Origin: a virus
Reading direction: 5' to 3' (one strand)
Length of the DNA stretch: 64,000 nucleotides
Virus record (IMG/VR): IMGVR_UViG_3300046820_001050
Coordinates: 1-64,000 of that record
A program made the translations under genes and the position numbers. Under the pieces are notes generated by a model. That model did not search any database. It was given only the letters and a program-made list of their open reading frames with translations, and was not told where the DNA came from. Positions 12,155-45,043 of this stretch are shown in pieces. Numbering within the stretch: position 1 is the first letter of the stretch; the number at the start of each line of letters is the position of its first letter.

Positions 12155-12186
12155 TTGACAAAGATATCATATGATATACTTGGTCT

Positions 12187-12834
12187 ATGATAGAAAATAA
12201 CAAAGAGTTTACTGGCGCAGTCGATGGAGTCTATGTAGTCAGAAATGCAGTTGTTGGAAATCGCCCAGACATGATACCAAGAGAAAAAAGTTATTTAGAT
12301 TTTTTGAATAAAGTTGGCGACTCTACGGAAAACATTAAAATAATTCCTAACTTTATAGGTGAAGAAGAAATTAAAGACCTTATGTCTCAGGTAGAAGTAA
12401 CAAAGGTAACAAGTTTTGTTTCTCAGAAAGATGCTAATGGTGAGCCAATAAACTGGATGCATACATATATGGGCATACATGATAGATTTAGCATAATCGA
12501 CAGAGTAACAAAAGAAATCAAAGATGCATACGGTTTTGATAACATAAGAGCAAAAGAACCACATCTTCATGTTGTACGATGGGACGAAGGTTCTGCACTA
12601 AAACTTCATGTAGATGACCTTGGGTACGTTACAGATAATAATATAGCAACACTAATCTATCTTAATGATGACTATGAAGGTGGAGAGATTTCTTTTGAAC
12701 AGCACAATCTTTCGGTTAAGCCCAAGACTGGTACACTACTTATATTTCCTGGAAATTTAAACTATGCACATGAAGTTAAAGAAGTTTTGTCTGGCAAAAG
12801 ATATACAGCACCTATCTGGTTTACGATAGTTTAA
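12187..12834 (+). CDS. 2OG-Fe(II) oxygenase, prolyl-4-hydroxylase-like
   Basis: 215-aa paralogue of the preceding gene with all metal and cosubstrate residues: LHVDDLG (His, Asp), NYAHEV (distal His), GKRYTAPIW (Arg). It keeps KVGDSTENIKIIPNF at the N-terminus. TATACT at 12175-12180 ends 6 nt before the ATG; a TTGACA lies upstream but at only 14 bp. Tandem with 11555-12154, which implies local duplication. Confidence 0.85.
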   Translation: MIENNKEFTGAVDGVYVVRNAVVGNRPDMIPREKSYLDFLNKVGDSTENIKIIPNFIGEEEIKDLMSQVEVTKVTSFVSQKDANGEPINWMHTYMGIHDRFSIIDRVTKEIKDAYGFDNIRAKEPHLHVVRWDEGSALKLHVDDLGYVTDNNIATLIYLNDDYEGGEISFEQHNLSVKPKTGTLLIFPGNLNYAHEVKEVLSGKRYTAPIWFTIV

Positions 12835-12848
12835 GGTATAATTTAATA

Positions 12849-13115
12849 GTGACAACCAACTTAGAGGGAAATATGAACAAAAGAAAACTTTTAGATGGAT
12901 CTGAAGTTAATGATTACGATTATCCAATTGATTTAATACTACACACAAAGGCACCTGGCAAATGGAAGTTGATCGATCTTGAAACTGGACAAGAGTATCT
13001 TGGATCAGAAATATCTCATGATACATTCGCTGAACTTTTAAGAAGCAAAGTTTCCTACTCTAAGATAGGATCTTGGTTTAAAACTAAAGGAAGAGTAAAT
13101 AATAATGCAAAATAA
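12849..13115 (+). CDS. hypothetical 88-aa protein, GTG or internal ATG start
   Basis: A GTG at 12849 stands exactly 6 nt after TATAAT (12837-12842), matching the leaderless pattern; an in-frame ATG at 12873 has GAGGGAAAT upstream and would give 80 aa. Small, mixed-charge protein ending in KTKGRVNNNAK. It overlaps the following fusion gene by 11 bases. Function unknown; position between oxygenases suggests a related role. Confidence 0.6.
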   Translation: MTTNLEGNMNKRKLLDGSEVNDYDYPIDLILHTKAPGKWKLIDLETGQEYLGSEISHDTFAELLRSKVSYSKIGSWFKTKGRVNNNAK

Positions 13116-17273: not shown

Positions 17274-18287
17274 ATGACTGATTTAACCAGAGATATTTTA
17301 AAATTTTACAAATACAATGAAAAAAATAGTTGGTACCTAACAAAATTTTTTTCAGAAACAAAAAATATTGGATACTATTCTCCATACCAAGAAGTAGGTA
17401 TCACTGGAACAAAAGAAGAAAATCAAAAGTACGCTGCAACTATAGATGAAGATAATACATATAAAATTAATGGTCTTGGTTTTCGTGGAAAAATTAATGA
17501 AGGTGCAGATGCACTTGGAGTTGGTTGCTCCATAACCTTTGGTCTTGGTGTTCCAGAATCAGGAAGATGGACAGACATATTAGCAAACAATCTTGGTAAA
17601 AGTGTTAACAATTTAGGAAGCCCTGGAGCCTCTGTAGCAACTATTTGCAAAAACATTATTCAATACTGCTTGATAAACGGAATGCCAAAAGAAATTTTTT
17701 GTTTGATGCCAGACTTTTTTAGAAGAATGGTAGTAGTAGACAAGGAATTTTACACATCTAAAAAAGGTACAGACAGAAATAGCCCTGGTAAAGGCGATCA
17801 CTTAGAGTTATTTTTTTGCAATCCAAGAGTTGCAAAATATGAAGACTCTATATTTATGGAAATAGAAGATAAAAAATATATAGAAGATTCAATTTCTCCA
17901 CATCAATTAATTTTAGATTCAGTAGAGTATCTCTATATTTTAGAATCCTTTTGTTTAACAAATGGAATAAAACTATACTGGACAACTTGGGATCGACCAA
18001 GTTCTTTAATCATGAACGAATTATCAAAAATTAAAGATTTTAAACTAAAAAGGTATACTAATCTTTTTTCAGAAACAACCGCATATGGCTATGACCCTTC
18101 ATTTAACAATACTTGCAACTCAGACCACAACTCTGAGTTTAAGGATAGTTCATGGTGGAGTCTTGGATCAGATTATTCAATTATAGATTATAAAAAAACA
18201 AATAAATATTCTCATCCAGGAATTCACTTTCATTATCACGTTTCAGATCTTTTCTATGAGTTACATAAAAAAGATTCAAACAACTAA
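17274..18287 (+). CDS. SGNH/GDSL-like hydrolase
   Basis: 337-aa protein that looks like an SGNH-fold hydrolase (esterase or acetylhydrolase group). Block I is GVGCSITFGLG (about residue 81), where the nucleophile Ser follows GC in place of the usual GD. Block II is seen in NLGSPGASV; a possible block V D-x-x-H pair appears near the C-terminus (the late IHFHYHV region). Two related proteins are encoded at 31670-33532. It could remove acetyl groups from a glycan. TATAAT at 17262-17267 ends 6 nt before the ATG. Confidence 0.6.
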   Translation: MTDLTRDILKFYKYNEKNSWYLTKFFSETKNIGYYSPYQEVGITGTKEENQKYAATIDEDNTYKINGLGFRGKINEGADALGVGCSITFGLGVPESGRWTDILANNLGKSVNNLGSPGASVATICKNIIQYCLINGMPKEIFCLMPDFFRRMVVVDKEFYTSKKGTDRNSPGKGDHLELFFCNPRVAKYEDSIFMEIEDKKYIEDSISPHQLILDSVEYLYILESFCLTNGIKLYWTTWDRPSSLIMNELSKIKDFKLKRYTNLFSETTAYGYDPSFNNTCNSDHNSEFKDSSWWSLGSDYSIIDYKKTNKYSHPGIHFHYHVSDLFYELHKKDSNN

Positions 18288-23395: not shown

Positions 23396-23959
23396 CTACT
23401 TATTCAATTTTTTATATTCATTTATATTTAGACGAATAGGCGAGCCATTAAAATTAAACCACAGGGTAGAAGAGTATCTTTCTTTGCCAATATTTTCAAG
23501 CACTTCATGCGGGTAGTCCTCATTGCTAGGGAATGTGACAAAACTGTTAGCCTTTGGCTTAATTTTTAAATTATGATTTGGAAAATTTATTTCTCCCCCC
23601 TCATAGTCATCGTTAATATAGTATATTACTGCAAAGTCTCCAGTGGTATCGGTGTGTTCATTCATTTTATGTCCTTTTTCAAATTTAATTAGATGAACTT
23701 CATTTCTTTCAAAAACACGAAGTTTTGCATCATAAATTTCTGTGCACTTGTCATAAGCAATTCTGAAAACTTTTTCTAATGAATCAACAATTTCTTTTGG
23801 CATTTCTTTTGATAGAAAGAACTTGACTCCCCATGGCTGAACCTGCCAGGAGTCAATAGCCTTTGCATAATCAAGCAGTTGTCTGTGTTCTGCTTCAGAC
23901 AAAACATTTTCTGTGAGTTGTATATTATTTGCAGAGTTTTCTAAATTTGATTTTATCAT
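23396..23959 (-). CDS. 2OG-Fe(II) oxygenase, prolyl-4-hydroxylase-like (tandem copy 3)
   Basis: 187 aa. Iron ligands EHTDT and DYPHEV, 2OG Arg in KERYSSTLW, core signature YINDDYEGGEINF. Third of three adjacent leftward paralogues. TATACT (23966-23971) ends 6 nt before its ATG, so it can also be transcribed independently as a leaderless mRNA. Substrate unknown. Confidence 0.88.
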   Translation of the reverse strand: MIKSNLENSANNIQLTENVLSEAEHRQLLDYAKAIDSWQVQPWGVKFFLSKEMPKEIVDSLEKVFRIAYDKCTEIYDAKLRVFERNEVHLIKFEKGHKMNEHTDTTGDFAVIYYINDDYEGGEINFPNHNLKIKPKANSFVTFPSNEDYPHEVLENIGKERYSSTLWFNFNGSPIRLNINEYKKLNK

Positions 23960-23962
23960 ATT

Positions 23963-24565
23963 TCAAGTATACCATTGTTTCTTTTTGTTAAAAGTGGATC
24001 CAGTAAACTGAAACCATAGAGATGAACTATATCTTTCTCCCTCTAAAATTCTAAATACTTCATGTGTATAGTTTTCATTTCCAGGAAAAATAATCAGACT
24101 GTTAGGCTTTGGCTTAATTTGAATATTGTGATCTATTAAACTTATTTCTCCACCTTCGTACTCATCATTGATGTAATAAATTGATGCAATATGCAGCGAT
24201 TCATTTGAGTTAACGTCTGCGTGTGGATGCAAAACAAAATCTTTTTCAAATTTAATTAAGTTAAATCTGTCCTTTGAAAAAATGTCAATTGGCACGTTAT
24301 AGACATCTTTGGCTTTTTCGTAAGCAATCGTAAATACCTCTTCTAATGAATCAATAACTTTGTCAGACATCTGGTCTAGCCCAATAGTCTTAGCATCCCA
24401 TGGCTGCAGCACCCAGAACTTACGACGAGTTACAAAATCAAGTATCTCATTGTGCTTATCTTTGTCCAAAACATTTTCTATATATATTACGTTTTCTGCG
24501 GAGTTTCCTATTTTAGCAACATTTGCTAAATAGATTTCATCTTTTTCAGAATAATCTTCACTCAT
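23963..24565 (-). CDS. 2OG-Fe(II) oxygenase, prolyl-4-hydroxylase-like (tandem copy 2)
   Basis: 200 aa with HPHADV, NYTHEV and GERYSSSLWF. The N-terminal EIYLANVAKIGNSAENV is nearly identical to the upstream copy (DIYLANVAKLGSSAKNI), showing recent duplication. It overlaps the upstream gene by 8 bases. Confidence 0.88.
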   Translation of the reverse strand: MSEDYSEKDEIYLANVAKIGNSAENVIYIENVLDKDKHNEILDFVTRRKFWVLQPWDAKTIGLDQMSDKVIDSLEEVFTIAYEKAKDVYNVPIDIFSKDRFNLIKFEKDFVLHPHADVNSNESLHIASIYYINDEYEGGEISLIDHNIQIKPKPNSLIIFPGNENYTHEVFRILEGERYSSSLWFQFTGSTFNKKKQWYT

Positions 24566-25181
24566 AGTTCATCCTTTGACGAGTTGTTGTTGGTCCTAAA
24601 AATGTAGATCCAGTAAAAACAAACCTTGCGCCAAAAGTATATCTAAATCCTTCTAAAACTTCAAGTACTCCGTGAACGTAGTTTTCATTACCAGGAAACA
24701 TAACTAAACTATTTGACTTGGGTTTAATTTTTAAATCATAATCTGGAAAAAATATTTCTCCTCCTTCATAATTATCGTTAATATAATACATACACACAAT
24801 ATGTTGGTGTTTTTGAGCATCTGTGTCTATATGCGGCTTCATATTGCTGCCCTTGCGCCACTTAGTCAAAAAATATTGACCCATCAAATCACTATCCACT
24901 TCTATGTCATAATAACTAATACAGTCGAGTCTAGCAGTTTTAAATATTTTTTTTAAAATTTCAACAGAATCCTCTGGCATTGCTTCAACAGGAATTCTTT
25001 CGGTAGTCCATGGCTCTTGAATCCAAGGAATATGATCTGAATTATTTACAAAATTAGATAATGTTTGATATTCTTTATCTGGTAAAAAATTATCTATAAC
25101 ATATATGTTTTTTGCAGAACTTCCTAATTTAGCGACATTTGCTAAATAGATATCATCTTTTTCAGAGTCGTGTTCCATCAT
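24558..25181 (-). CDS. 2OG-Fe(II) oxygenase, prolyl-4-hydroxylase-like (tandem copy 1)
   Basis: 207 aa with KPHIDT, NYVHGV and the Arg in GFRYTFGARF. Ends GSTFLGPTTTRQRMNYE, overlapping the second copy. The ATG pair at 25181 overlaps the upstream membrane protein gene by 4 bases. Substrate unknown; the three copies may act on different residues or partners. Confidence 0.88.
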   Translation of the reverse strand: MMEHDSEKDDIYLANVAKLGSSAKNIYVIDNFLPDKEYQTLSNFVNNSDHIPWIQEPWTTERIPVEAMPEDSVEILKKIFKTARLDCISYYDIEVDSDLMGQYFLTKWRKGSNMKPHIDTDAQKHQHIVCMYYINDNYEGGEIFFPDYDLKIKPKSNSLVMFPGNENYVHGVLEVLEGFRYTFGARFVFTGSTFLGPTTTRQRMNYE

Positions 25182-31660: not shown

Positions 31661-31689
31661 ATTATATCATTATTCATTCTTTGTGTCAA
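31661..31689 (-). promoter_or_regulatory. consensus endolysin promoter
   Basis: On the minus strand TTGACA (plus 31684-31689), 17 bp, TATAAT (plus 31661-31666). The ATG is 19 nt further with AGGAGG, so the lysin mRNA is leadered. Confidence 0.75.
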
Positions 31690-32587
31690 CTAGACCCAAA
31701 AGACCCTGTGCCCACCTGTAGTGATAGTAATAGCCATGGTGACTATCTCTTTTATTAAGTAATGTTTTCATTTTATAAGCATCTTCAATAAAAAAATCTC
31801 TACTTTCTAAAATAATTTCAGTCATAGTTGGTAAAGTTACAAAATTTTTAAAGACATTTAATGACTTATAATTATCGTGATCAGGTTCTGACCAGGTTGA
31901 CCAGACAAGTTTTATATTGTTAGAGATGCAATATTCTTCAAACAACTTTACCAAAATTATAAATGGCGGTATCATAGATCTTTGATCTTCTATTGTTTGC
32001 CTTGTTCTTTTTGTTCCATCTTTTTCTATAACATCATTCTTAGCCCAAAACGGAGTATACAGAACATGTCTGTATCGTTCAAAATCTTTTTCATCATCAA
32101 ACCATCTAAATTTTCTTCCAATATTTGGCAACAGCATATAAATTTTATCTGGTTTTCCGTATTTATTAATATACTCTATTACGTTTGGTATGATGGCTTC
32201 GTGTCCCCAACCAGCCCTTGATAAATTAAAAAATCCAGACAACTTTGTTTTTTTAGAAAGTTCTGTATAAATAATATGTGACCAAGCAGCATCTATGTTA
32301 CCACCGACACCTTCTCCCTCTGAGCAACCAGTGAACAAAACATGTTCTCCGTCATGACTTTCTATAAATTCGTCAGACCTAAAACCCATGGAGTTAAAGT
32401 AGTATCTTACATCATTATCATTCTCAAACCCAGAATACATTTTTTCTCCGCTGACCTGAAACTCTTCTTCTGGCAATCTATGCTGTGTGTCCATCTTATT
32501 AAAAAATGTTGCATGATTGTTCCACTCATCCTTTACTGGCTTCATCAAATAGTCAGTTACGTCTTTTTGCATAAAATATTTTCTCAT
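31670..32587 (-). CDS. SGNH/GDSL-like hydrolase, paralogue
   Basis: 305 aa. Block I FTGCSEGEGVGG (Ser nucleophile after GC), GFFNLSRAGWGHE as block II-like Gly, KIYMLLPN as block III, and a late D-S-H-H pair (RDSHHGYYYH) as the catalytic Asp/His. Very similar to the next gene and more distantly to 17274-18287. Expected to hydrolyse esters such as O-acetyl groups; target unknown. Confidence 0.65.
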   Translation of the reverse strand: MRKYFMQKDVTDYLMKPVKDEWNNHATFFNKMDTQHRLPEEEFQVSGEKMYSGFENDNDVRYYFNSMGFRSDEFIESHDGEHVLFTGCSEGEGVGGNIDAAWSHIIYTELSKKTKLSGFFNLSRAGWGHEAIIPNVIEYINKYGKPDKIYMLLPNIGRKFRWFDDEKDFERYRHVLYTPFWAKNDVIEKDGTKRTRQTIEDQRSMIPPFIILVKLFEEYCISNNIKLVWSTWSEPDHDNYKSLNVFKNFVTLPTMTEIILESRDFFIEDAYKMKTLLNKRDSHHGYYYHYRWAQGLLGLVDTKNE

Positions 32588-32638
32588 ACACTAGCCTATA
32601 TTTTTAATTATAGACATTCCTTTCTTTTATTCATTATA

Positions 32639-33532
32639 TCATGCTTTGTCTTTGTGGTAAGTTTGATCTAAAAATCTTTTTGACCAAATGTGGTGGTATA
32701 GATACCCATGATGTCCGTCTCTTTTTTTAAGTAAATACTTTTTCTTTGATTCATCATTTGTTACAAAGGTTTTGCTTTCTAAAAAAACATCCCCGTCGTC
32801 TGGAAGTGTAATAAAACTATTAAACACATTTAAATTTTTATAGTTTTTCCCATCTTCTTGTGACCATGTTGCCCATCGCAAGTCTATGCTATTGGATATA
32901 CAATACTCTTCAAATAGTTTTACCAAAATTATAAATGATGGAATCATATTCCTTTGATGCTCTATGGTCTGTCTTTTTCTATTTTCTCCATTGAGTTCTT
33001 TTAAGTCTTTTTTTGACCAGTGTGGCGTTAGTTGTATATGTCGATATTTTTCTAAGTTTTCTGACTGCCCAACATACTCAAATATTCTTGAAAGATTTGG
33101 CAACAGCATGTAAATCTTATCTGGTTTGCCATACATATTAATATATTGAATAATGTTTGCTATTATTATTTCATTTCCCCATCCGCCTCTTGAGAGATTA
33201 AAGAATCCAGATAGTTTTTCTGTTTTACAAAGTTCTGTGTAAACCATATGTGGCCAGGAAAATTCTAAATTACCACCAAAGCCTTCTGTCTCTGAGCAAC
33301 CAGCAAATAGAACGTGTGTACGTTTGTGTGTTTTTGTAAACTCATCTGAGCGAAAGCCTAAAGAGTTAAAGGAATAACGTACGCTATCGTCTCCTTCAAA
33401 TTCTGGCAATATTGTTTCACCGTTGATTAAAAACTCTTCCTCTTTTGATCTTTTAAAATCATCTATTTCATTAAAGAACAGTGCCTTCATGTTTACAGAT
33501 TTTGCAATTTTTTTCATTAAATATTCTTGCAT
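32639..33532 (-). CDS. SGNH/GDSL-like hydrolase, paralogue
   Basis: 297 aa, close paralogue of 31670-32587: GCSETEGFGG, NLSRGGWGNE, YMLLPNLSR and KRDGHHGYLYHH occupy the same positions. Tandem duplication. It lies immediately downstream of the carbamoyltransferase gene (4-bp gap), suggesting action on the same substrate. Confidence 0.65.
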   Translation of the reverse strand: MQEYLMKKIAKSVNMKALFFNEIDDFKRSKEEEFLINGETILPEFEGDDSVRYSFNSLGFRSDEFTKTHKRTHVLFAGCSETEGFGGNLEFSWPHMVYTELCKTEKLSGFFNLSRGGWGNEIIIANIIQYINMYGKPDKIYMLLPNLSRIFEYVGQSENLEKYRHIQLTPHWSKKDLKELNGENRKRQTIEHQRNMIPSFIILVKLFEEYCISNSIDLRWATWSQEDGKNYKNLNVFNSFITLPDDGDVFLESKTFVTNDESKKKYLLKKRDGHHGYLYHHIWSKRFLDQTYHKDKA

Positions 33533-33535
33533 ACG

Positions 33536-34969
33536 CTACCCTATAATTTTTGTATTATAGGTATCCTCCCAAGCAACAATATCTATCTCATCATTTAAAA
33601 GTGGTTGTCCTTTAATGTTTAGGCTTGTATTTAATAAAACTGGAACACCAGTTTCAAGATAAAATTTATTTAAAACCCTGTATAGTCCACGATGCTGTTC
33701 TCTATTTACAGTTTGCACTCTTGATGTTCCGTCAGCATGAACCACAGAAGGTATCTTTTCTGGCTGTAGGCATTTAACTGTATACTGCATGTAGGGGCTT
33801 GTAAAGTCCATATCAAACCACTTAGATGCACACTCCTCCATAACTACTGGAGCAAACGGTCTAAACAACTCTCTTTGTTTAATTAAATTAACTTTGTCTT
33901 TAATATTGGGATCTCTTGGATCAGCAAGAATACTTCTATTTCCCAATGCTCTTGGACCGTACTCTGCTCTACCTGCTGCTACTGCTACTATTCCATCCTT
34001 TAATATACCCTCCACAATTTGCTGAACTGGATACTCTCCACCAAGGTCATAACCAAGATATGGGGTCTTCCAGTTAAGGTGCTTTCCGTATAGTGCTGCA
34101 GCAGCCCCTAAAGAACTGCCAGCATCTCCAGGGTTTGGCATAATCCAAATCATATCAAAGATGTTCCATAGCGTCGTGTTTGCTGAAGAATTAAGAGCAC
34201 ACCCACCCATAAACACTAAGTTATTTTTGCCAGTTAAATCTTTAGCCATTTTCATAAACTCTGCAAGCCTTAGTTCATAAACATATTGTACTGCTGCCGC
34301 TATGTCAAACTTATCCTGCTCTGTGATTGGTTCATTCCAGTCAATGATGCCTTTATGAAAATTGTATTTTTGCATATCATGTCTAAGAAAGTAGTTAGAT
34401 ACTTTGGCTGAATACCTTTCTGGATTTCCATAGGCTGCCATTCCCATCATAATGTACTCTTCTTGGTTAGGCATTAAGCCTATTAATTGAGTAAATGCTG
34501 AGTAAAATAGCCCAAAAGATACTGGATAGTTTTTTTTGTACTTTAACCTTATCTTTTCACCTTCACCAACCCAAATTGTAGATGTATTAAATTCACCAAT
34601 TGCATCTAATACCACGATACAAGCATCATTAAATGCGCTTGTGTAGTATCCTGCTGCAGCATGAGAATAGTGATGACCAAAGTTTTTTCTTGGAAGATCA
34701 TCTAATTCTGTACCTTCAAACCATGGAGTACCTCCACCAAAACCACCCCTAGTCTTTACTCTAAGTTTTTTAAGCAAAGGCTTTTCATAGTATGCAATTT
34801 GGTCTGGATATCCGTACTGAAGAGCATCTTTAATAAGTTCTCTGTTTGTAAACCAGTCATTTTTTTGCTTACTATATCTTTCTGCATGCCCTGCAAAAAG
34901 TATCTCACCATTTTTTATTAGGGATACTGAAGCATCATGGGTGGTTTCATTTATACCAAGAATTATCAT
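33536..34969 (-). CDS. carbamoyltransferase (NodU/CmcH-type)
   Basis: 477 aa. The Kae1-like N-terminal domain begins MIILGINETTHDASVSLI and has NFGHHYSHAAAGYY (metal-binding His) and VVLDAIGEFNTS; the C-terminal YrdC-like part has EYGPRALGNRSILADPR, FRPFAPVV and VLLNTSLNIKGQPL. Such enzymes transfer carbamoyl from carbamoyl phosphate to a hydroxyl on a sugar or antibiotic. It is somewhat shorter than many family members (about 530-600 aa). Coupled by 4 bases to the upstream oxygenase gene. Confidence 0.88.
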   Translation of the reverse strand: MIILGINETTHDASVSLIKNGEILFAGHAERYSKQKNDWFTNRELIKDALQYGYPDQIAYYEKPLLKKLRVKTRGGFGGGTPWFEGTELDDLPRKNFGHHYSHAAAGYYTSAFNDACIVVLDAIGEFNTSTIWVGEGEKIRLKYKKNYPVSFGLFYSAFTQLIGLMPNQEEYIMMGMAAYGNPERYSAKVSNYFLRHDMQKYNFHKGIIDWNEPITEQDKFDIAAAVQYVYELRLAEFMKMAKDLTGKNNLVFMGGCALNSSANTTLWNIFDMIWIMPNPGDAGSSLGAAAALYGKHLNWKTPYLGYDLGGEYPVQQIVEGILKDGIVAVAAGRAEYGPRALGNRSILADPRDPNIKDKVNLIKQRELFRPFAPVVMEECASKWFDMDFTSPYMQYTVKCLQPEKIPSVVHADGTSRVQTVNREQHRGLYRVLNKFYLETGVPVLLNTSLNIKGQPLLNDEIDIVAWEDTYNTKIIG

Positions 34970-35637
34970 TCTGCACCATACGACTCTCTTTTTTCATCAA
35001 ATTTTATATTATGATACCAGTTTGGTAGAGCATATCTTGGTCCTTTTGTAACTGGGTGAACCTCATGAACATATAGGAAGTTGGATGGAAAAAATAAAAT
35101 GCTGCCAGCCTTTGGTTTTATCTTAATTCCAGAGTGCTTAAACTCTATCTCTCCACCCTCATAGTCATCATTTAAATAAAGCAAAACGGAAAGCACACGA
35201 CTGCTAACCCCTTGATCTTGATGTGCTGGCAGGTATCCACTTTCCTGATACTTTAATATATGCATTTTTGATTCTCTAGATTTAATATTTTTTTCTGCAA
35301 ATGGATATAGTTCAGTAGAATAGTGGCTAAGTGTTTTTTCTAGTGCTCCAAAAAGTTGATCGGATATACTTTTTTGCTCTTCATAATAAGGATCTTTTAA
35401 GTCAATATTCTCAACTTGTGGTATAAACTTTTGCAAACAAAACATTAGTTCATTTTTACCCTTGCCAAAAGTTCTAGGGATCCAAGGCTTAACACATGTA
35501 TCTTTGTAATTTTCTGATACACACTTACTATCTAATTCTTCTATTTGCTTAATTAAAAAATCTGGATTTTCTATTACATTTGTATAGTATACCAACCCTA
35601 GGTCAAGCACCTCACAGTTAAAATCTGGCATGTCCAT
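34966..35637 (-). CDS. 2OG-Fe(II) oxygenase, prolyl-4-hydroxylase-like
   Basis: 223 aa with LPAHQDQG (His and Asp ligands), LYVHEVH (distal His), KGPRYALPNW (Arg) and YLNDDYEGGEIEF. It is longer at the N-terminus than the rightward copies and lacks their IGNSxxNI motif. It directly precedes and overlaps the carbamoyltransferase gene; hydroxylation followed by carbamoylation is a plausible order. ATG after AGAAGGGA. Confidence 0.88.
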   Translation of the reverse strand: MDMPDFNCEVLDLGLVYYTNVIENPDFLIKQIEELDSKCVSENYKDTCVKPWIPRTFGKGKNELMFCLQKFIPQVENIDLKDPYYEEQKSISDQLFGALEKTLSHYSTELYPFAEKNIKSRESKMHILKYQESGYLPAHQDQGVSSRVLSVLLYLNDDYEGGEIEFKHSGIKIKPKAGSILFFPSNFLYVHEVHPVTKGPRYALPNWYHNIKFDEKRESYGAE

Positions 35638-35649
35638 GTCCCTTCTTAA

Positions 35650-35736
35650 CTAGTAGATAAAGTTATTATCTCTAGGATTTTTTCTAATTTTTCTTTTAAT
35701 AAAATAATATCTTATAGTTCTGATTATTTTTTTCAT
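35650..35736 (-). CDS. basic 28-aa peptide
   Basis: A frame starting at ATG 35736 after GTGGGAGAAAAT encodes MKKIIRTIRYYFIKRKIRK followed by a polar tail: highly basic, possibly amphipathic. Small basic peptides like this occur between genes in related phages. Unknown. Confidence 0.45.
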   Translation of the reverse strand: MKKIIRTIRYYFIKRKIRKNPRDNNFIY

Positions 35737-35748
35737 AATTTTCTCCCA

Positions 35749-36312
35749 CTAGTTTAAATCTGGATCTATTGTAACATAGCCCTTTGGATGCTCTGTTTGA
35801 GTTGTATGCATATAAAGCAGTGTTGATCTGTGTCCACTTTCTATTGGAGATATTCCATGCCTCCACAATTCCCCATCACTTGGGAAAAATACTCCATCAT
35901 ATTTTTTTGGTTTATAAGTAAAATTAAGTGCTGGAAAATATAAATCTCCACCAGTAAAATTGTCATCAAGATATATTACAGTGCTATACTCTATAAATTC
36001 CTCTGGCGGTTGATCATCAACGTGTGCATCTCCCTGCATTCCTGTTTGCCAGACCGAACCAAATGACTTGAATGTCTTTATTTTTTTTGTTTCTTCTGGA
36101 TGCAGTCTATGGTGAACATCAATAGATAGTAAAGAATATTTTTTTTGAATAGCAAGAACAGTCTTGTTGTATGGATAGGCAGTTCCTCCGTACCTAGTGC
36201 TGTAGTATTCTGGGTATGGATTTTTTTCTGAAGGGCTTTTTATTTCACTCAATAAAATATCAGCATCTGCAGGACTAATAAAATTCTCAATTATAACTGG
36301 CTGCTTTATCAT
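35749..36312 (-). CDS. 2OG-Fe(II) oxygenase
   Basis: 187 aa. GDAHVDD supplies His and Asp, ELWRHGISP the distal His, GHRSTLLY the Arg. YLDDNFTGGDLYFP replaces the usual YLNDDYEGG signature, so it belongs to a more divergent subgroup. Begins MIKQPVIIENFISPADADILL. Part of the modification cassette. Confidence 0.85.
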   Translation of the reverse strand: MIKQPVIIENFISPADADILLSEIKSPSEKNPYPEYYSTRYGGTAYPYNKTVLAIQKKYSLLSIDVHHRLHPEETKKIKTFKSFGSVWQTGMQGDAHVDDQPPEEFIEYSTVIYLDDNFTGGDLYFPALNFTYKPKKYDGVFFPSDGELWRHGISPIESGHRSTLLYMHTTQTEHPKGYVTIDPDLN

Positions 36313-36345
36313 TTCTTTCTCCCTAAACTAATTATAGCACAGACA

Positions 36346-37179
36346 TCAATAAATACTTTTTTGCACTTCATGAAATCTTCTTTCGGACATGCCGTCTAGA
36401 TTTGTTAGTGGTACATACTCAACATCATCCATAGGGTATGGAAAATATGCCAACCTGCTGAAATCATAATCAATAATTTTCATAAGTTGATCAACCCCTA
36501 AAATATCAGAACTCTTATTTTTAAAAGAGTCTATGATTTTTGAATAGTTGTGTCGCAATGCAAATGGTACAAAATCTTTTTCCAGTATACTAGGTTCTTC
36601 ATCATTGACTAAACTAGTCGCAACTGATAGGATTGGAATGCTTTCATGTGCAGCAAACATAGACAAACACTCCTCAACCCCATAGTACTTAAACATTGAT
36701 ATATCTGGCAACCTTTTAAATAATCCAAAAGGAATAAAGAAAAACTCTTTAACTAGCCAATTGGTTAGTGTTGCTGAGCCTGTCTCTATCTTTTTATATT
36801 CTGGATAAAACTTGTAATTGTTTTTATCAAATACAATATTATGATTGCCAGATATAATTATCTCTGCTTGATTACTGTTTAACAATAATTCAGAATCCCA
36901 ATTTTTTTCAAACATTTTAGCGCCATCAATATACATAAAAAAATCAAAGCCTTTTCTTTTCTTTAAGTAATTTAAATGTATAAATCTAGATATTAAACTG
37001 TCCCAGTGTATATGGTTATATTCTATGTCTAAAAATTTATCTGGCCTTGATACATTTGTCTGATCATATACGATGATATGAACAGAGTTTTCACCACTTT
37101 GATTTTTTATAAGTTGCTCTACTGCTTGTGGTAACAACTTACTTTTGTAGCCATAAAAATAAACCAGTATACTTTTCAT
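36346..37179 (-). CDS. glycosyltransferase-like protein
   Basis: 277 aa. The start at ATG 37179 follows the upstream stop by 1 bp; an earlier in-frame ATG would overlap that gene. SILVYFYGYKSKLLPQAVEQL then HIIVYDQTN and FFMYIDGAKMFEKNWDSELL are laid out like a GT-A glycosyltransferase, with YIDGAKMF near the DxD position. No close family assigned. It could add a sugar to the substrate of the cassette. Confidence 0.6.
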   Translation of the reverse strand: MKSILVYFYGYKSKLLPQAVEQLIKNQSGENSVHIIVYDQTNVSRPDKFLDIEYNHIHWDSLISRFIHLNYLKKRKGFDFFMYIDGAKMFEKNWDSELLLNSNQAEIIISGNHNIVFDKNNYKFYPEYKKIETGSATLTNWLVKEFFFIPFGLFKRLPDISMFKYYGVEECLSMFAAHESIPILSVATSLVNDEEPSILEKDFVPFALRHNYSKIIDSFKNKSSDILGVDQLMKIIDYDFSRLAYFPYPMDDVEYVPLTNLDGMSERRFHEVQKSIY

Positions 37180-37180
37180 T

Positions 37181-37846
37181 TTACAACAATGGTATCCAGT
37201 GCTGCTCGATTGTTTGATCTCCACCTCTAAGTAAAGACTCTAAAGGCTGAATGTCATAGGCAACTGTAATTCTTGATCCAGACCAGTCCCAATCACCCTG
37301 TGCATGCGGATGACCCATTTCAGAAACAATCATCCTATTGTCAATATTATGATTTGCAACTTCTTTGTTTGGATCCCCATAAAGTCTATAGTATGTTATT
37401 GATGGCTCAGCCTTTACACAATAATACCCATGAAAATTAGGAGCACCAGGTGCGCCGTGATCATGCCAGTTTAACTTTCCATTTCCTGCTTTATTTATAT
37501 TGAACCAACCCTGAACGTAGTACTGTTGCTTTTCAAAATCTACACCATAATATTCGCAGGCTTCCTTAACAGTTTTTGACAGTTCAGAATACAACTTGTA
37601 TAAAGAAGGATGGTAAAGTTGAAATACATTATATTCTCTCCACTTTACAGTTGACAAACTTCCAGACTCTAGCCAGTACCCTGGATCATTTTCCATTGTT
37701 TCAACGCCACGAAGTTTTGCGTTTTCAATCAGTTTGTACTTTTCTTCTAAAAACCTAGCCAGTTCTTCTAGATCATTGTCTAGATATTTTTCAAAAAACT
37801 TATGTTCTTTGTTGTTTCTTAACATAGGCCCGTTTGAGTTTAGCAT
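37181..37846 (-). CDS. probable 2OG-Fe(II) oxygenase, cupin-type
   Basis: 221 aa. NWHDHGAPG could supply His/Asp iron ligands, GHPHAQGD a second His, and SRITVAYDI an Arg. The overall pattern resembles the putative 2OG-FeII oxygenase group with an HxH-type motif more than the prolyl-hydroxylase group. Overlaps the upstream stop by one base (TAATG). Substrate unknown. Confidence 0.6.
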   Translation of the reverse strand: MLNSNGPMLRNNKEHKFFEKYLDNDLEELARFLEEKYKLIENAKLRGVETMENDPGYWLESGSLSTVKWREYNVFQLYHPSLYKLYSELSKTVKEACEYYGVDFEKQQYYVQGWFNINKAGNGKLNWHDHGAPGAPNFHGYYCVKAEPSITYYRLYGDPNKEVANHNIDNRMIVSEMGHPHAQGDWDWSGSRITVAYDIQPLESLLRGGDQTIEQHWIPLL

Positions 37847-38610
37847 TACTTATCTCCTTTATTATTTACTTGCTCTTTATTGTATTTTGCATATTCTTTT
37901 TTTCTCCATGCAAATTTTCTGTAGTGTGCAGTTATATCAGACCTTCTGTTTTCTGATCTTAACTGATGCTTTTCTATAGAATCAGATGAGTCATCAACTA
38001 CCAGATTCCAAGGCTCTCTTTTGATTGGAATCATTTGAAACACTGGTGTTCCCATAGGTATTACTCCTTCAAAATCTTTTTTTATAAAGAATGGTATAAA
38101 TGCAGGCAGTCCCCAAATATCTGAGTCTACTAATCCAGAAGGAACCCAAAACGGTAGATCTGGTCTGTTTATTGGCATTGTTAGCAATATAGAATATCCT
38201 TCAGGTGTTTCATAAAACCAATTCATCTTTACACCAAAATGTATTGGATGAACATCTTTTGGAATTGCCATATCAACATTTGGTCTTTTGTCCATCAACA
38301 TAAAATCTTTTTTCCAAGACAGAGAAGGCTTTCCGTGTAAATCTAGTTTTACCTCTAGATCATCTTCTAGTACATACATATACCCAAGAGACATTGCATC
38401 CTGGAATGGTAAACAAAGTTTTGTAGAAACATTTGATCCATCCCCACCTCTATCATTTACTGGGTGCAAATCTTTTAAGTCATTGCTGTTAAAATGTTTT
38501 GCTAAATCTCTATACCACTGAGGTATTTTTTTATATGACGGCTCTGGAGATATAAAATTGTCAATGTTCCCGCTTGGAATAAAGGTTAACTCTAAATCAT
38601 TGTTTTCCAT
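37846..38610 (-). CDS. phage protein of unknown function, 254 aa
   Basis: Contains KKIPQWYRDLAKH near the N-terminus, KLCLPFQDAMSLGYMYVLEDDLEV around residue 64-87 and several Trp/Pro-rich beta segments (LPFWVPSGLVDSDIWGLP). Similar proteins occur next to oxygenase genes in marine and freshwater phages, but no role is established. Cassette member by position. Confidence 0.6.
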   Translation of the reverse strand: MENNDLELTFIPSGNIDNFISPEPSYKKIPQWYRDLAKHFNSNDLKDLHPVNDRGGDGSNVSTKLCLPFQDAMSLGYMYVLEDDLEVKLDLHGKPSLSWKKDFMLMDKRPNVDMAIPKDVHPIHFGVKMNWFYETPEGYSILLTMPINRPDLPFWVPSGLVDSDIWGLPAFIPFFIKKDFEGVIPMGTPVFQMIPIKREPWNLVVDDSSDSIEKHQLRSENRRSDITAHYRKFAWRKKEYAKYNKEQVNNKGDK

Positions 38611-39256
38611 AATCTTCTTTTAACCTTTCTATCTCTTCATCACTTAAAATAACAGACATGTCATACATTGGAGTATTCTTACTAATGATAGCATACTTTT
38701 CTTTTAGATGATATACACCAGTATTTTTAATTTTAAAATCAACAAATTCTGTATTTGCGTATGGGACATTGCTTTCGACTATTTTTCCCTTAAAAATTTT
38801 TTGAACTACATAAAAAGGAGTTTGCTCATCCATCACTGGATCAATAATAATATTAGCATTCTTATTTATAAACCAGGGTACATAAAATTTATATGTTGGC
38901 TTAAAGCATTCATTACTTTCTAGATTATTTTCAGAAGGATAGAACTGTCTTTGATTGCATTTGTCTAAGGCGTATATGACATCTTTGTCTTTTTCCTCAA
39001 CCCATATCTCTGCGTGAGTTCTTTGTCTAAAAGTAACCAAATTATTATCTATTTTTAATATTGTTGGCCTTGTGTATAAACTAAATGCATATCTGTTTAT
39101 TGGGTGCAAAACACTTTTGATATTTTGCATGTATCCTGAGTCATACCTGGCCCAATGATCTGGCATTTTTGATTGACGGACTATTACTGAAAAAGGTAAG
39201 TTTTCAGAATTAAGCCACCATTCAGATCCTGAAATATAATTCTTGCTTTTTATCAT
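38597..39256 (-). CDS. phage protein of unknown function, 219 aa
   Basis: Beta-rich, with WWLNSENLPFSV, PINRYAFSLYTRPTIL, FYVPWFIN and PFYVVQKIF. Shares a general layout with the downstream gene, which it overlaps by 14 bases. No catalytic motif visible. First gene of the leftward modification cassette; the next upstream feature is tRNA-Asn. Confidence 0.6.
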   Translation of the reverse strand: MIKSKNYISGSEWWLNSENLPFSVIVRQSKMPDHWARYDSGYMQNIKSVLHPINRYAFSLYTRPTILKIDNNLVTFRQRTHAEIWVEEKDKDVIYALDKCNQRQFYPSENNLESNECFKPTYKFYVPWFINKNANIIIDPVMDEQTPFYVVQKIFKGKIVESNVPYANTEFVDFKIKNTGVYHLKEKYAIISKNTPMYDMSVILSDEEIERLKEDYGKQ

Positions 39257-39303
39257 TTTCCCTTATTCTAAAATATTAATACAATAATTATACACCACTC
39301 TTG

Positions 39304-39376
39304 CTGCCCCACCTGGCCTCGATCCAGGGACATCCGAATTAACAGTTCGGCACTCTACCAACTGAGTTATAGGGCA
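39304..39376 (-). tRNA. tRNA-Asn (GTT)
   Basis: 73-nt minus-strand cloverleaf: acceptor TGCCCTA/TGGGGCA (one G-U), anticodon stem CCGAA/TTCGG with loop CTGTTAA and anticodon GTT (plus 39341-39343), discriminator G. CCA not encoded. The only tRNA on this strand. Confidence 0.9.
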
Positions 39377-39411: not shown

Positions 39412-40311
39412 TTAATTACGAATATATGATGCAGAACCAATCAAAATCTTTGGCAGAGAAGTTAGATAATCTCCAAAAGTTTTGTCTGTATTTCTACTCA
39501 CGTATGATGCTGCTGATACCACGGTTGCTACAGAACTTCCAGCAGTATCTGTTGTTGAGCCATTGTACTTGGTAATAGTTACCTTTCCAGGTGCAACCAT
39601 ATCAAGTCCAGGACCTGTATTTGTTGCTGTCTCTAGTTGCGTTGCAATAGAAAAAGGTCCTGAAACAGTATTAGCCAAAGCACCAACACCAATTACTCCC
39701 TCAATACATGCAGGAAATCCAACAATATCTCTTCGTCTGTCATTGCCTGTTGCAACAAATACTGGGATATTGCTCTTACCTAAAGATGCTACTGCATTAA
39801 TAGCGACTGTGTTTGTTGAGCATAGTGCAAGGTTACCTGCACTGACTGAAGACTGACTAATCGATAGAGCATCAATGCTGTACTTTGCTGCGTTCTGTGA
39901 TACCCAATTCATTGCTGAAACTAATGATGTTACCTGGCTAGAAAGCATATTTTGATTTCCATTTTTGTCTGTATTTGAAATTCTTATGAATACAATTTTA
40001 ATATTGGGGTTAGCAGTAAGGGCAGACTTAACCATCTGATCTCCATGATAAATTCCATTATTAATAGATGTTGGCCATGCTACTGCTGCTGCACCTTTGC
40101 CTTCCATAAAAGTGTTGCCGTTGGGACATGCTACTGGATTTGCAATCACATTTTGTCCTGTAAAACAAACCTCATGAATAATTGATGGAAAGTTATTTGA
40201 GTTAATAGCAGAGTCAATGACTGCTAATACTCTTTCATCTTGTGCTTGCGCTGGCTGAATTGCTGTAAATGCAATTGTAATTGATAGTAGTGCTAGTAGT
40301 AACTTCTTCAT
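39412..40311 (-). CDS. secreted subtilisin-like serine protease
   Basis: 299 aa; ATG 40311 after AAGGAGAAAAT. Signal peptide (MKKLLLALLSITIAFTA, cleavage after QAQ). S8 family triad: Asp in LAVIDSAIN, His in NNGIYHGDQMVKSA, oxyanion Asn in VATGNDR, Ser in GSSVATVVSAA (in place of the usual GTSMA). Four Cys suggest disulfides. An exported protease is unusual in a phage; it could process surface proteins, virion proteins or the exported proteins encoded nearby. Confidence 0.85.
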   Translation of the reverse strand: MKKLLLALLSITIAFTAIQPAQAQDERVLAVIDSAINSNNFPSIIHEVCFTGQNVIANPVACPNGNTFMEGKGAAAVAWPTSINNGIYHGDQMVKSALTANPNIKIVFIRISNTDKNGNQNMLSSQVTSLVSAMNWVSQNAAKYSIDALSISQSSVSAGNLALCSTNTVAINAVASLGKSNIPVFVATGNDRRRDIVGFPACIEGVIGVGALANTVSGPFSIATQLETATNTGPGLDMVAPGKVTITKYNGSTTDTAGSSVATVVSAASYVSRNTDKTFGDYLTSLPKILIGSASYIRN

Positions 40312-40331
40312 TATTTTCTCCTTGTTATTAT

Positions 40332-40550
40332 TTATTGTTTGATTTTTAAAACTAATTGGCATGGGTCTCCGCCTTCTTCCCACTCTTGCTGTTCTTCTTT
40401 AGTCATGTAAGGATCTCCTTCATGTGTATTGCAGAATGGCTCTGTTATCCATCCCCGCTCAATTCCATTTTCAAGCCAGATCTCAAACTCATCAAAGTCT
40501 GACTCCATATTCTGAATGTCCTTTAGGATCTCTTCAAATTCTTCGTTCAT
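40332..40550 (-). CDS. conserved acidic 72-aa actinophage protein
   Basis: GWITEPFCNTHEGDPYM and EGGDPC near the C-terminus form a pattern recurrent in actinophages (PFC-x-THDG ... DPC). Very acidic. Cys/His placement suggests zinc. Function unknown. Confidence 0.75.
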   Translation of the reverse strand: MNEEFEEILKDIQNMESDFDEFEIWLENGIERGWITEPFCNTHEGDPYMTKEEQQEWEEGGDPCQLVLKIKQ

Positions 40551-41663: not shown

Positions 41664-43799
41664 TTACCTCCTCATCCCAATCATTACATTTGCAATCTGT
41701 GAAACAATGATTACTGGGATAATGACTTCCTGGGCTTTTTCTCTCTGATCGTCTGTCATGTCCATACCCAACTCAGAGAAATTGGATAGGAGTTCTGTAA
41801 CATCCACATTGAATACTGCTCCAAGTGGATCTTCAAGAAATGCTTCTGTTTGTACTTCTGTTACTGCGTCTGCTAATGTAAATGGCATTGGGGTTTCTCC
41901 TGCATCCCCTGCTCTTTCTGCGAACTCAACAAACGCTGAAGCAAGTGCTGGATTGCCCTTCATCTGCTCAGCAATCTGTGCGACTTCTGATGCCTTGATA
42001 CCAAGGTCTCCAGCAATTTCTGCCTTTGCTTCTTGTGTTAAAGACTTTAGAGTTTGGCTAACTGCTGCTACCTGCTCTGCAGAAAGTTTAACTAATTTGT
42101 TATCCTTGCTTGTAAGGTTAGCAATAACTCCAGATAAATCTTCTGATGTACCAGTTCCCTTTTCAGGAATAAGTGCAGCAAGTTCTTCATCCTTTATTTC
42201 AGGATTCTTTTCTGGCTCTGGTGTTGGTTCTGGCAATGGCTCTGGAGAAGGCTCTATAGAAGGCTCTATGGTAGGCTCTGGCTTTGGCTTAGGCTCTTCT
42301 GTAGGTGTTGGCTTTGGCTCCTCTGGCTTTGTAGGTTCAGGCTTTGGATTCTCTGTTGGATCTGGCTTAGGGCCTGGCTGTGTTGGCTTTGGACCTGGCT
42401 CTTCTGTTCCAGTAACATTAGTTGGCTTTGGCTCTGGTTTATCTGTTGGTGGTGTAGAAGGCTTTGGCTTTTCTGGTTCAACAGTAGGCTTTGGTGAAGG
42501 CTCTGGCTTAGGTTGATTTGCTGCAGCGTTTGCTGCTGCTTGCGCTATAGCCATTTGAATTTCTCTTTGCAACTGCTTGTCATAATAATTCCAGGCATCT
42601 TGAATTGCATTATTAACATCATTAACTGCTTCATTAAAATCATTTATCGCATTATCTTTTTCAGACAAAGCATCTGCTGTATTATTTACTGCGTTGTCGT
42701 ACTCAGATTCTTTGTTTATTAGTGTTTGATTCAAGGAGTTTAGTATTGCGACTTCTTGGTTGTATACATTTAACTTATCATTATATTCTGACAAGGCATT
42801 ATTATAATCTTGTTGTGCTGCATTTCGTGTTGCAAGTGCTTGATTATAGGCATCTATTTCTGACTGTGTTGGTCCTGATCCAGATGAGAATGTATTAAGA
42901 TTACAAGAGAATCCTACTCCCCATCCACCAGTATAATCACAACCTGCTCCAGTCCACCCTCCAGGTATTGCCCATCCAAGATGATAAGATCCTGGTCCGC
43001 CTCCGTTATACCACCATACCTCTACATTTAAAGTTTTGTTTTGACTTACATCATATACTGGAGAGTATGCACTCCATGTTGCCCCTTGCTCACGCCAGTT
43101 ATTAACTGCAAGATTTCCATTAACAAACATTCTAAAACCATCGTCTGTGTATCCTGCAAAATATGTTGATGTCCAGTGATTCGGCACTGTTATTTGTCCA
43201 GTAAACTTAACTATAAAATTTTGATATCTATTTCCACAAACTGGAAGTTGCATTGAGTTAGAGTTCCAAGTTCCTTCGCATAGCACAGATCCTGGGGTAG
43301 CGACATTACCCTGTCTAACAAGAGTATAAACAGTGTATGCCAAACCTGGACCTCCAGAAGACTGCATATTAGACTGTGTGGTTTGGAGATTGATGTTGGC
43401 TATATTCAGAGAATCCTGGGCATCGTTCTTATCCTTAAAGGCATTGTTTCTATTCTCAAGAGCAATTGCTACTGTGGCTGTCTGCCCATCTACATTTGAC
43501 TGGGCAAGTTCTACTTCTTCTAATGCTAATTCTTCTGCTTCTACTGCATCTTCATAGTCTTTAATTGAGGCATCTCTTACATCCAGCAGATTTTTGGCGT
43601 ACATAAACTTGTTCTCTGCTATGTCAATCATGTCTATTAGACCATCTTTATAGTCTAATTTATCTACTGCGCTATTGAGGTTTTCAATCTGCTTGGCTGC
43701 AACAGTTAGAGGGTCGTCAGAATGAGCCTCTGTAGGGGCTATTATGAGCCATCCAAAGGCTAATATTGTAGCGATTGCTATGCGTGATAATCGTTTTAT
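41664..43799 (-). CDS. exported PA14 and proline-rich protein, probable ATA start
   Basis: 711 aa if translated from ATA 43799. Upstream of the first in-frame ATG (43631) the frame stays open through 56 codons encoding a textbook signal peptide (KRLSRIAIATILAFGWLII then A-P-T-E-A) preceded by AGGGGG with 7 nt spacing, so initiation at ATA is proposed. Order: signal peptide, coiled coil (about 60-150), PA14-like beta domain (about 153-301, WTSTYFAGYTDDGFRMFVNG), coiled coil (305-425), a 104-residue Pro/Lys/Glu repeat (about 430-533, PKPEP type), helical domain and hydrophobic C-terminal end. Probable surface or virion protein and a possible prolyl-hydroxylase substrate. Confidence 0.7.
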   Translation of the reverse strand: MKRLSRIAIATILAFGWLIIAPTEAHSDDPLTVAAKQIENLNSAVDKLDYKDGLIDMIDIAENKFMYAKNLLDVRDASIKDYEDAVEAEELALEEVELAQSNVDGQTATVAIALENRNNAFKDKNDAQDSLNIANINLQTTQSNMQSSGGPGLAYTVYTLVRQGNVATPGSVLCEGTWNSNSMQLPVCGNRYQNFIVKFTGQITVPNHWTSTYFAGYTDDGFRMFVNGNLAVNNWREQGATWSAYSPVYDVSQNKTLNVEVWWYNGGGPGSYHLGWAIPGGWTGAGCDYTGGWGVGFSCNLNTFSSGSGPTQSEIDAYNQALATRNAAQQDYNNALSEYNDKLNVYNQEVAILNSLNQTLINKESEYDNAVNNTADALSEKDNAINDFNEAVNDVNNAIQDAWNYYDKQLQREIQMAIAQAAANAAANQPKPEPSPKPTVEPEKPKPSTPPTDKPEPKPTNVTGTEEPGPKPTQPGPKPDPTENPKPEPTKPEEPKPTPTEEPKPKPEPTIEPSIEPSPEPLPEPTPEPEKNPEIKDEELAALIPEKGTGTSEDLSGVIANLTSKDNKLVKLSAEQVAAVSQTLKSLTQEAKAEIAGDLGIKASEVAQIAEQMKGNPALASAFVEFAERAGDAGETPMPFTLADAVTEVQTEAFLEDPLGAVFNVDVTELLSNFSELGMDMTDDQREKAQEVIIPVIIVSQIANVMIGMRR

Positions 43800-43903: not shown

Positions 43904-45043
43904 TTACTTAACAAGAGTAACCTTAGCCTTTGGATTCTTTGCATTCCATTGGCGAGCCAACTTGTTGAAAGCATCCTTAAGTGACTTGATTGCTGCAGCA
44001 TTATCTGCTGTCAACTTAGCAACGACTGCATCATGTGCAACCTTTACATCAGCAAGTGCCTTATCTGAAGCAACCTTTGCATCTGCTAGTGCCTTTGCTG
44101 AAGCAGCCTTCTCTGCTGCTAGAGCAGCATCTGAAGCAACCTTTGCAGCAGCAGCATCCACAGCAGCCTTTAGAACTGCAGCATCTGCTACAGCCTTAGC
44201 AGCAAGTGCTGCATCCTTAGCAGCCTTTTCTGCAGCAAGTTCTGTGATTAGATCACGAACAGCAATTTCTGCAAATGGTGCAAGTGTACGAGCAGTTAGA
44301 CCTACTACGTCTGCAGAAGCAGCATCAGAAGATGTTGTTGGTGCAAATGTGATAAGTGCTCGTGAGCCAGTTGTTGGAAGAGTTGCCTTGAAGGTTGCTG
44401 TTCCAAAATCTGCAAGTGTAGCACCAGTTGTTACTGTTGCTGTGTCTAGTGTTGCTGTTGCAGCAAAGACTGTTGCAGTAATTGACTTACCAGATACCTT
44501 ATTACCAAATGCATCTGTTGCAGTTACTGTAATGTCCTGCTTTGTTCCTGCTGCACCTGATGTAGGTGCTGCAACTGTTAGGTTATTAATCTTTCCAGCA
44601 GTTCCCTGTACATAGTATGTAAGGGTTGTTCCACCGTTGTTGATTACAACTGTACCAATTGCTGTTGTCTTTGTGTAGACAAAAAATGTTGCAGTTGTTC
44701 CAGTACCTGTTGCAATTGTCAAAGATGATGATCCTGACGATGCTCCTACTGGTGCTGCTGATGTGTTTAGTGCTGATACGATTGTTGCGTTAGTTGCTAC
44801 TGCAGAAACTGATGTTCCTGCTGCTACTGTTGCTACAAAACGCAATGCATCTGTTGCATCAATTACGTTATCTTCTGGGACTGGCAATGCAGCAGGTGTA
44901 GCAATTACACCGTTAGTGGTGTTTGCTGTACCATTTAGCGTTACTGCGACTGTCATTACTGTAGCATTTGCAGGTGCTACTGCGACCATGCCCAAAGTCA
45001 TGGCTGCAACCACGGCTAGTGCGATCTTCTTGAATGAATTCAT
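43904..45043 (-). CDS. secreted Ig-fold, alanine-rich surface protein
   Basis: 379 aa; ATG 45043 after AAGGAGAAATACGA. Signal peptide (FKKIALAVVAAMTLGMVAV, cleavage after ANA), Thr/Ala-rich beta region, one bacterial Ig-like domain (about 160-245: GTKQDITVTATDAFGN), then a long Ala/Lys/Asp coiled coil with near-repeats (KALADAKVASDKALADVK). Similar to cell-surface proteins of low-GC freshwater actinobacteria, so possibly acquired from a host. Role could be virion decoration, surface masking or adsorption interference. Confidence 0.75.
   Translation of the reverse strand: MNSFKKIALAVVAAMTLGMVAVAPANATVMTVAVTLNGTANTTNGVIATPAALPVPEDNVIDATDALRFVATVAAGTSVSAVATNATIVSALNTSAAPVGASSGSSSLTIATGTGTTATFFVYTKTTAIGTVVINNGGTTLTYYVQGTAGKINNLTVAAPTSGAAGTKQDITVTATDAFGNKVSGKSITATVFAATATLDTATVTTGATLADFGTATFKATLPTTGSRALITFAPTTSSDAASADVVGLTARTLAPFAEIAVRDLITELAAEKAAKDAALAAKAVADAAVLKAAVDAAAAKVASDAALAAEKAASAKALADAKVASDKALADVKVAHDAVVAKLTADNAAAIKSLKDAFNKLARQWNAKNPKAKVTLVK

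Follow-up and report, generated by a model that had tools for sequence, protein, structure and literature searches.

Hydroxylation of viral proteins by viral enzymes is already known in eukaryotic viruses, and the viral use of prolyl 4-hydroxylase has been called cryptic (PMC9301287). Among phages, aquatic ones above all carry many genes resembling 2-oxoglutarate (2OG)-Fe(II) oxygenases and prolyl hydroxylases, and for those of cyanophages a tuning of 2-oxoglutarate has been suggested (PMC3037559). Here we report on such genes in a 64,000-nucleotide stretch of viral DNA (positions 1 to 64,000 of the IMG/VR record IMGVR_UViG_3300046820_001050; hereafter the window), which comes from a phage record of 98,649 bp, designated G000 where coordinates of the whole record are given. 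Nine leftward genes of the window, transcribed in the order u219, u7084, ox3, GT, ox2, ox1, CT, sgnhB and sgnhA and followed by an endolysin gene, were taken in an earlier reading of the letters alone, the original prediction, for one cassette that modifies one target. Instead, they are two adjacent units: unit A, consisting of a carbamoyltransferase (CT) and two SGNH-like proteins, and unit B (34966-39256), a block of six genes encoding oxygenases, a glycosyltransferase (GT) and the proteins u219 and u7084. With a probability that we put at roughly 0.55, and on genomic grounds as far as the chemistry is concerned, unit B would hydroxylate, and probably glycosylate, the phage's own fibre-locus repeat protein. 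This link between repeats and enzymes names a concrete and testable substrate for phage oxygenases.

The large terminase of this phage is 55% identical to that of Streptomyces phages such as StarPlatinum and Karimac, and for that reason its host is probably a freshwater actinobacterium. A search at the DNA level for cultured relatives gave no match, and among annotated phages no protein matched u219, ox3, sgnhB, the GT or the fibre protein; u7084 was matched in haloviruses only. The distribution of both units was followed in two scans: one with CT, which returned 577 relatives, the best 80 of which were read, with 69 loci having enough flank, and one with u7084 as query, which added loci where the block lies behind tail-fibre genes. 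Furthermore, 31 records were searched whole for CT and 21 for both u219 and the block-type GT, the genome table leaving aside shorter CT contigs, which hold no fibre gene.

All nine open reading frames are present where they had been predicted and, since homologues with conserved order exist, they are not chance frames. The genes are packed as described, with gaps of 1-50 bp or overlaps, except that ox2 and ox1 are separated by 111 bp, the sole wide gap. The parts of the supposed cassette, however, occur independently of each other. CT was found in 19 of the 31 records searched whole, and none of the 18 that reach 85 kb lacks it, irrespective of fibre type (6 of these 18 were reached via u7084 or the fibre, not via a CT locus); it belongs to the core genes of this actinophage-like group. 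Only about one in four of the CT loci read also carries the six-gene block, which can lie to either side of CT, and most CT loci have CT and SGNH genes but no block. About 75 loci share the order of the block, u219-u7084-(u7084 or ox3)-GT-ox2-ox1, 44 of them beside CT, 24 directly behind tail-fibre genes without a nearby CT, 7 in neither position or cut by a contig end, and 0 in both. The same 14/21 records have u219 and a closely related GT of the block type, and the other 7 have neither, holding distant GT relatives at most. Independent occurrence in relatives was what the original prediction named as its refutation; on this count a single nine-gene cassette fails, and one target for all nine genes is not supported. 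What stands of the predicted modification system is the six-gene sub-block, whose hydroxylation and glycosylation enzymes are strictly co-conserved. Since the block can stand next to the fibre with no CT nearby, and CT is present with every type of fibre, the fibre-locus protein is a better candidate for the target of the block than the antibiotic or surface glycan first proposed. The single-target tailoring idea is only partly supported.

The fibre-locus repeat protein is made up of an N-terminal segment, an fn3 domain, aromatic repeats (FAPFGAFGAFG...) and a Hint-like C-terminus, for which Hint/intein profile matches were obtained in relatives only, and below the curated cut-offs. Relatives keep this frame and swap the repeat, which can be FFPPFFPP, FFAPPGFFAPPG, FGFTPFGFTP, FSVFGFSPFG, FGAFGAFG or YHGFYHGF. 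Collagen-like GXY repeats were considered as a hydroxylase target, and none occur in this genome. The strongest sign that a distant block and the genes beside the fibre work on the same thing is that ox3 and u7084 trade places between block and fibre: where the third slot of the block holds ox3, u7084 is found beside the fibre (6 genomes), and where it holds u7084, ox3 is found beside the fibre (5 genomes). This holds in 11/11 genomes that have the block far from the fibre, the exact chance of such complete matching being 1/462 with the genomes taken as independent, and fibre-side versions of the block hold the union of both gene sets.

The enzymes near the fibre also change with its repeats. 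Fibres with FFPP or FFAPPG repeats have 5-9 prolyl-4-hydroxylase (P4H)-like genes within 8 kb, and FxP-FG fibres have ox3 and 1-2 P4H-like genes, and frequently the complete block as well. Proline-free FGAFG fibres have u7084 alone nearby, and the equally proline-free YHGF fibres u7084 and ox3. In 59 non-redundant fibres, uncorrected for kinship, aromatic zones richer in proline go with larger numbers of P4H-like genes within 8 kb (Spearman rho 0.66, p 2e-8), and in the same set proline content does not correlate with ox3 or u7084. Furthermore, ox3 is present in 0/4 FFPP genomes versus 17/17 other records of at least 75 kb (Fisher 1.7e-4), and unit B in 0/4 FFPP genomes versus 14/15 other CT-bearing genomes (p 0.0013), an association that holds even though some 60 kb can separate the block from the fibre. 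The one genome that departs from this, G001, combines a fibre free of proline with ox3 and u7084 only, without the block.

Of the unit B proteins, ox1 and ox2 both score above the curated PF13640 cut-off, with HxD...H...R visible in their translations, which accounts for two of the two or three 2OG oxygenases expected. The third, ox3, matches no Pfam family, but its HDH...HPHA...R columns are invariant in 10 homologues in a pattern like that of the 2OG fold, so that it is a probable 2OG-type oxygenase and a lead; its PoNi and excisionase matches were judged to be chance. A defence system was also considered and rejected, the PADLOC match being a generic 2OG model for ox1 only. For the GT, the most likely start codon is ATG 37179, just past the ox3 stop, and not GTG 37224. 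The relation of this GT-A-like protein to PF11397 is seen at the level of the family, 14/21 members of which match that profile (best 2.7e-60), with the block GTs of two loci (L008 and L015) above the curated Pfam cut-off; the window protein itself has no match. Searches of solved-structure profiles with the GT, u7084 and ox3 gave no match. Structure prediction, proposed earlier for the two proteins without assignment, gave confident models for both. That of u219 (pLDDT, the predicted local distance difference test, 88) has weak, non-significant matches to the dUTPase fold, and that of u7084 matches PDB dUTPases (E 2e-4, prob 1.00) as well as viral ones. The GIVDSDIWG stretch of u7084 resembles dUTPase motif 3, but, reading the alignment by eye, a PRS-type motif 2 is absent, which makes dUTPase activity doubtful; u7084 is probably not a true dUTPase. 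In the haloarchaeal tailed viruses HRTV-7 and HJTV-2 (L086 and L087), u7084 lies near class II ribonucleotide reductase or thymidylate synthase genes and near fibre/adhesin genes, and the fibre-side u7084 of the window's phage also adjoins a ribonucleotide reductase gene.

So what could unit B do to the repeats? PF11397 we take to be the Skp1 GlcNAc-transferase family, and the relation of the GT family to it fits glycosylation of hydroxyproline of the Skp1 type. In the mechanism that we propose, ox1 and ox2 would hydroxylate prolines in F-x-P-F-G repeats, ox3 would hydroxylate another residue of FG-type repeats, and the PF11397-related GT would attach a sugar to the hydroxyl so formed, on the model of the Skp1 pathway (PMC8724618). 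The u219 and u7084 proteins may act as a trimeric scaffold, a chaperone or a still unknown enzyme. A more tentative extension, to which we give less than even odds, is that aquatic tailed phages possess an exchangeable enzyme code, in which hydroxylases, GT and dUTPase-fold proteins are matched to the fibre repeats FFPP, FxPFG, FGAFG and YHGF, resulting in a hardened or sugar-decorated fibre.

Table 1. Positions of the genes and other elements discussed (window coordinates, except where G000 denotes the whole record).
Feature	Coordinates	Strand	Description
u219	38597..39256	-	Unit B, first gene; without a known family; fold rich in beta-strands
u7084	37846..38610	-	Unit B; phrog_7084 2.2e-30; dUTPase-like fold; model pLDDT 80
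ox3	37181..37846	-	Unit B; probable 2OG-type oxygenase; no Pfam family
GT	36346..37179	-	Unit B; GT-A-like, related to PF11397 (GlcNAc transferase)
ox2	35749..36312	-	Unit B; P4H-like 2OG-Fe(II) oxygenase; PF13640 3.2e-6
ox1	34966..35637	-	Unit B; P4H-like 2OG-Fe(II) oxygenase; PF13640 1.7e-18
CT	33536..34969	-	Unit A; NodU/CmcH-type carbamoyltransferase; Carbam_trans_N/_C (Pfam); apparently intact
sgnhB	32639..33532	-	Unit A; SGNH-like; invariant G78, S80, G84, H274, nearly invariant D272
sgnhA	31670..32587	-	Unit A; SGNH-like; same family as sgnhB
Sigma-70 promoter, extended consensus, perfect	31661..31689	-	12/12 match, 17-nt spacer, TG; consensus match only
First fibre gene	G000:97403-98434		Matches phrog tail-fibre families, 2.3e-25
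Fibre-locus repeat protein, 517 residues	G000:95819-97372		Outside the window; follows first fibre gene
Second u7084	G000:95023-95736		Directly behind the fibre-locus repeat-protein gene; weak DUF6065 match

We must however take into account several points that weigh against a modification of the fibre by unit B. The substrate, the chemistry and the roles of u219, u7084, CT and the SGNH proteins are what we infer from the genomic pattern. Neither the GT nor the SGNH proteins of the window have a family match of their own, and several members of the GT family have lost the usual DxD/DxH motif. FGFSP/FGFTP fibres without u219 exist (G018 and G023), and therefore glycosylation would not be universal. 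The neighbourhood of halovirus u7084, which adjoins thymidylate synthase or ribonucleotide reductase, hints at nucleotide metabolism, and a PEPT-rich protein at 41664-43631 is a possible alternative substrate. As for the sampling, records in the genome table may be incomplete, and the table is biased, several genomes having been reached via u7084 or unit B; with the CT-reached genomes and the window alone, unit B is present in 0/4 FFPP versus 5/6 FG genomes (exact p 6/252 = 0.024). Finally, the independent events are few (2-4 supported pairs; sign tests 0.125-0.5), and the enzyme arrays adjacent to the fibre could reflect simple co-transfer with it.

This last point leads to the alternative that survives best, namely that tail-fibre regions and accessory genes pass between phages as blocks with no function in common. 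The trees themselves speak for a matching of repeats and enzymes: a tree of CT requires 3 changes of the FFPP state, 2 of them forced by well-supported branches and each with ox3 absent, and on the tree of the fibre N-terminus a change in PP repeats is accompanied by one in P4H arrays in 3.6/4 independent pairs on supported branches, and never by an opposite one. These events are too few for significance, so that kinship and co-transfer have to be reckoned with, and the fact that many enzymes adjoin the fibre is what linkage alone would give. It would not, however, explain why unit B covaries with the fibre even from about 60 kb away, why ox3 and u7084 are complementary across two loci in all 11 genomes, or why proline content tracks the P4H-like family and neither ox3 nor u7084, and we regard linkage alone as unlikely.

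Slightly less credit is due to the idea that unit B modifies another phage protein, for instance the neighbouring product of 41664-43631. This protein has a PA14 domain, a PEPT/PKPT-rich stalk and a C-terminal hydrophobic stretch, is conserved in CT phages whether or not they carry unit B, and may be a protein of the surface or the virion and a target of O-glycosylation. It is proline-rich and encoded within 3 kb of the block, and its PA14 domain suggests a role at the surface, but the stalk is equally strong in phages that do not have unit B, and both the tie to the fibre repeats and the swap would be left unexplained. Two other genes beside the nine encode proteins of a secreted type with signal-peptide-like starts: a subtilase (39412-40383; PF00082 6.9e-7) and an Ala-rich protein without a family (43904-45043).

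The remaining alternatives involve unit A, which we regard as separate from unit B. CT is a NodU/CmcH-type enzyme as predicted (Carbam_trans_C 1.3e-52; phrog_1601 3.5e-105), in which both the Kae1-like N-terminal domain (HHxxHA) and the YrdC-like C-terminal domain are present, and its nearest PDB structures are GdmN (6.8e-54) and TobZ. Its HHYSHA, GPRALGNRS, RPFAPVV and LNTSLN motifs are conserved in 58 homologues, and identity across the best 80 of the 577 relatives is 78-90%; a genome scan limited to close relatives turned up no cellular ones. By default, CT would most likely carbamoylate a sugar hydroxyl (O-carbamoylation). The predicted SGNH pair has no Pfam match of its own, but the family profile gives weak GDSL/TesA-type matches, with invariant GCS and D-x-H-x-G motifs. 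Of the catalytic residues, S80 and H274 are invariant and D272 is conserved in at least 90% of 57 sequences, with D-x-H spacing, whereas the block III Asn of the oxyanion hole, present in the window pair, is found in less than 70% of the family. An SGNH gene touches CT in 49 of the 69 loci with enough flank, often at only 25-35% identity to those of the window, and these proteins may trim or move acyl groups on the same glycan on which CT acts. The SGNH genes diversify strongly beside a nearly constant CT: one locus (L021:7539-12324) has four of them around a single CT, three before and one after, followed by two PF11397-like GT genes. A third SGNH-like gene of the sgnhA/sgnhB family lies far from CT in the window (17274-18287).

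A role in DNA hypermodification, in which CT would carbamoylate 5-hydroxymethylcytosine (5hmC) and the oxygenases and GT would tailor bases further, has a precedent in a phage CT of the same superfamily (PMC8670742), and a weak Tet_JBP match of ox1 and the dUTPase-like fold of u7084 would suit it. It is nonetheless disfavoured and, in our estimate, improbable. No thymidylate synthase/dCMP hydroxymethylase (PF00303) was found in the 98.6-kb record, which may be incomplete, with positive controls; CT is only 30% identical to the 5hmC enzyme, and has RALGNRS where the DNA enzyme has RALCNTT. Of the residues 408, 421 and 423, which are reported to mark DNA activity and were mapped by eye, only 408 (V) differs from TobZ, G421 and R423 being TobZ-like. 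Moreover, the oxygenases are P4H-like and not TET-like, and the covariation with the fibre would be left unexplained. Just as improbable is one nine-gene cassette tailoring a small molecule or a host surface glycan, for although all nine genes are adjacent here and the NodU/CmcH relatives of CT, nearest to GdmN and TobZ, tailor antibiotics and Nod factors, no other biosynthetic genes were seen nearby, and CT and the block occur without each other, the latter also behind fibre genes.

Some further features of this genome are worth recording. Eight P4H-like genes are present in all, counting ox1 and ox2, the others forming two clusters of three such 2OG genes each (11555-14547 and 23396-25181), far from both the fibre and the nine genes. 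Directly upstream of u219, a leftward tRNA-Asn gene (39303-39376) marks a possible insertion hot spot, and at the other end the promoter at 31689-31661 would allow the endolysin gene that follows to be transcribed separately. The product of 10131-10730 has a weak sulfotransferase-like match (E 0.05).

If unit B and its counterparts do act on fibre repeats, phage fibres would be hydroxylated and perhaps glycosylated, which bears on host range, virion stability and protein materials. The enzyme code, if true, would amount to a previously undescribed system of protein modification serving the attachment of phages to their hosts, and would account for much of the so far unexplained wealth of phage 2OG oxygenases. 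In the open-access literature we found no description of the link between repeats and enzymes.

Several known systems nevertheless share parts with it. The phage 5hmC carbamoyltransferase (PMC8670742) has the CT superfamily in common with the window's phage, which differs in having no dCMP hydroxymethylase and a CT that is TobZ-like at 2/3 of the discriminating residues. T4-like cyanophages (PMC3037559) likewise carry many 2OG oxygenases of unknown target; there, the proposal is 2-oxoglutarate tuning for NtcA, whereas the set described here is tied to fibre repeats. The proposed glycosylation of mycobacteriophage virions (e.g. PMC11256854) also has phage GT genes acting on the phage's own virion, but with a capsid protein as the target and no hydroxylation step described. 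In PBCV-1 and mimivirus, whose prolyl hydroxylation and collagen modification are cited in PMC9301287 and PMC8968730, viral hydroxylases act on viral repeat proteins; those are collagen GXY repeats in viruses of eukaryotes, whereas this tailed phage and its relatives have F-x-P-F-G, FFPP or FGAFG repeats, with no GXY repeats in the genome of this phage. Skp1 modification in protists (PMC8724618) likewise combines a P4H-type 2OG oxygenase with a GlcNAc-transferase-type GT and a hydroxyproline acceptor, which in the phage is proposed. That pathway, however, is eukaryotic and directed at one target proline, whereas the phage has several oxygenases, a repeat protein and dUTPase-fold proteins, and the similarity of its GT is remote.

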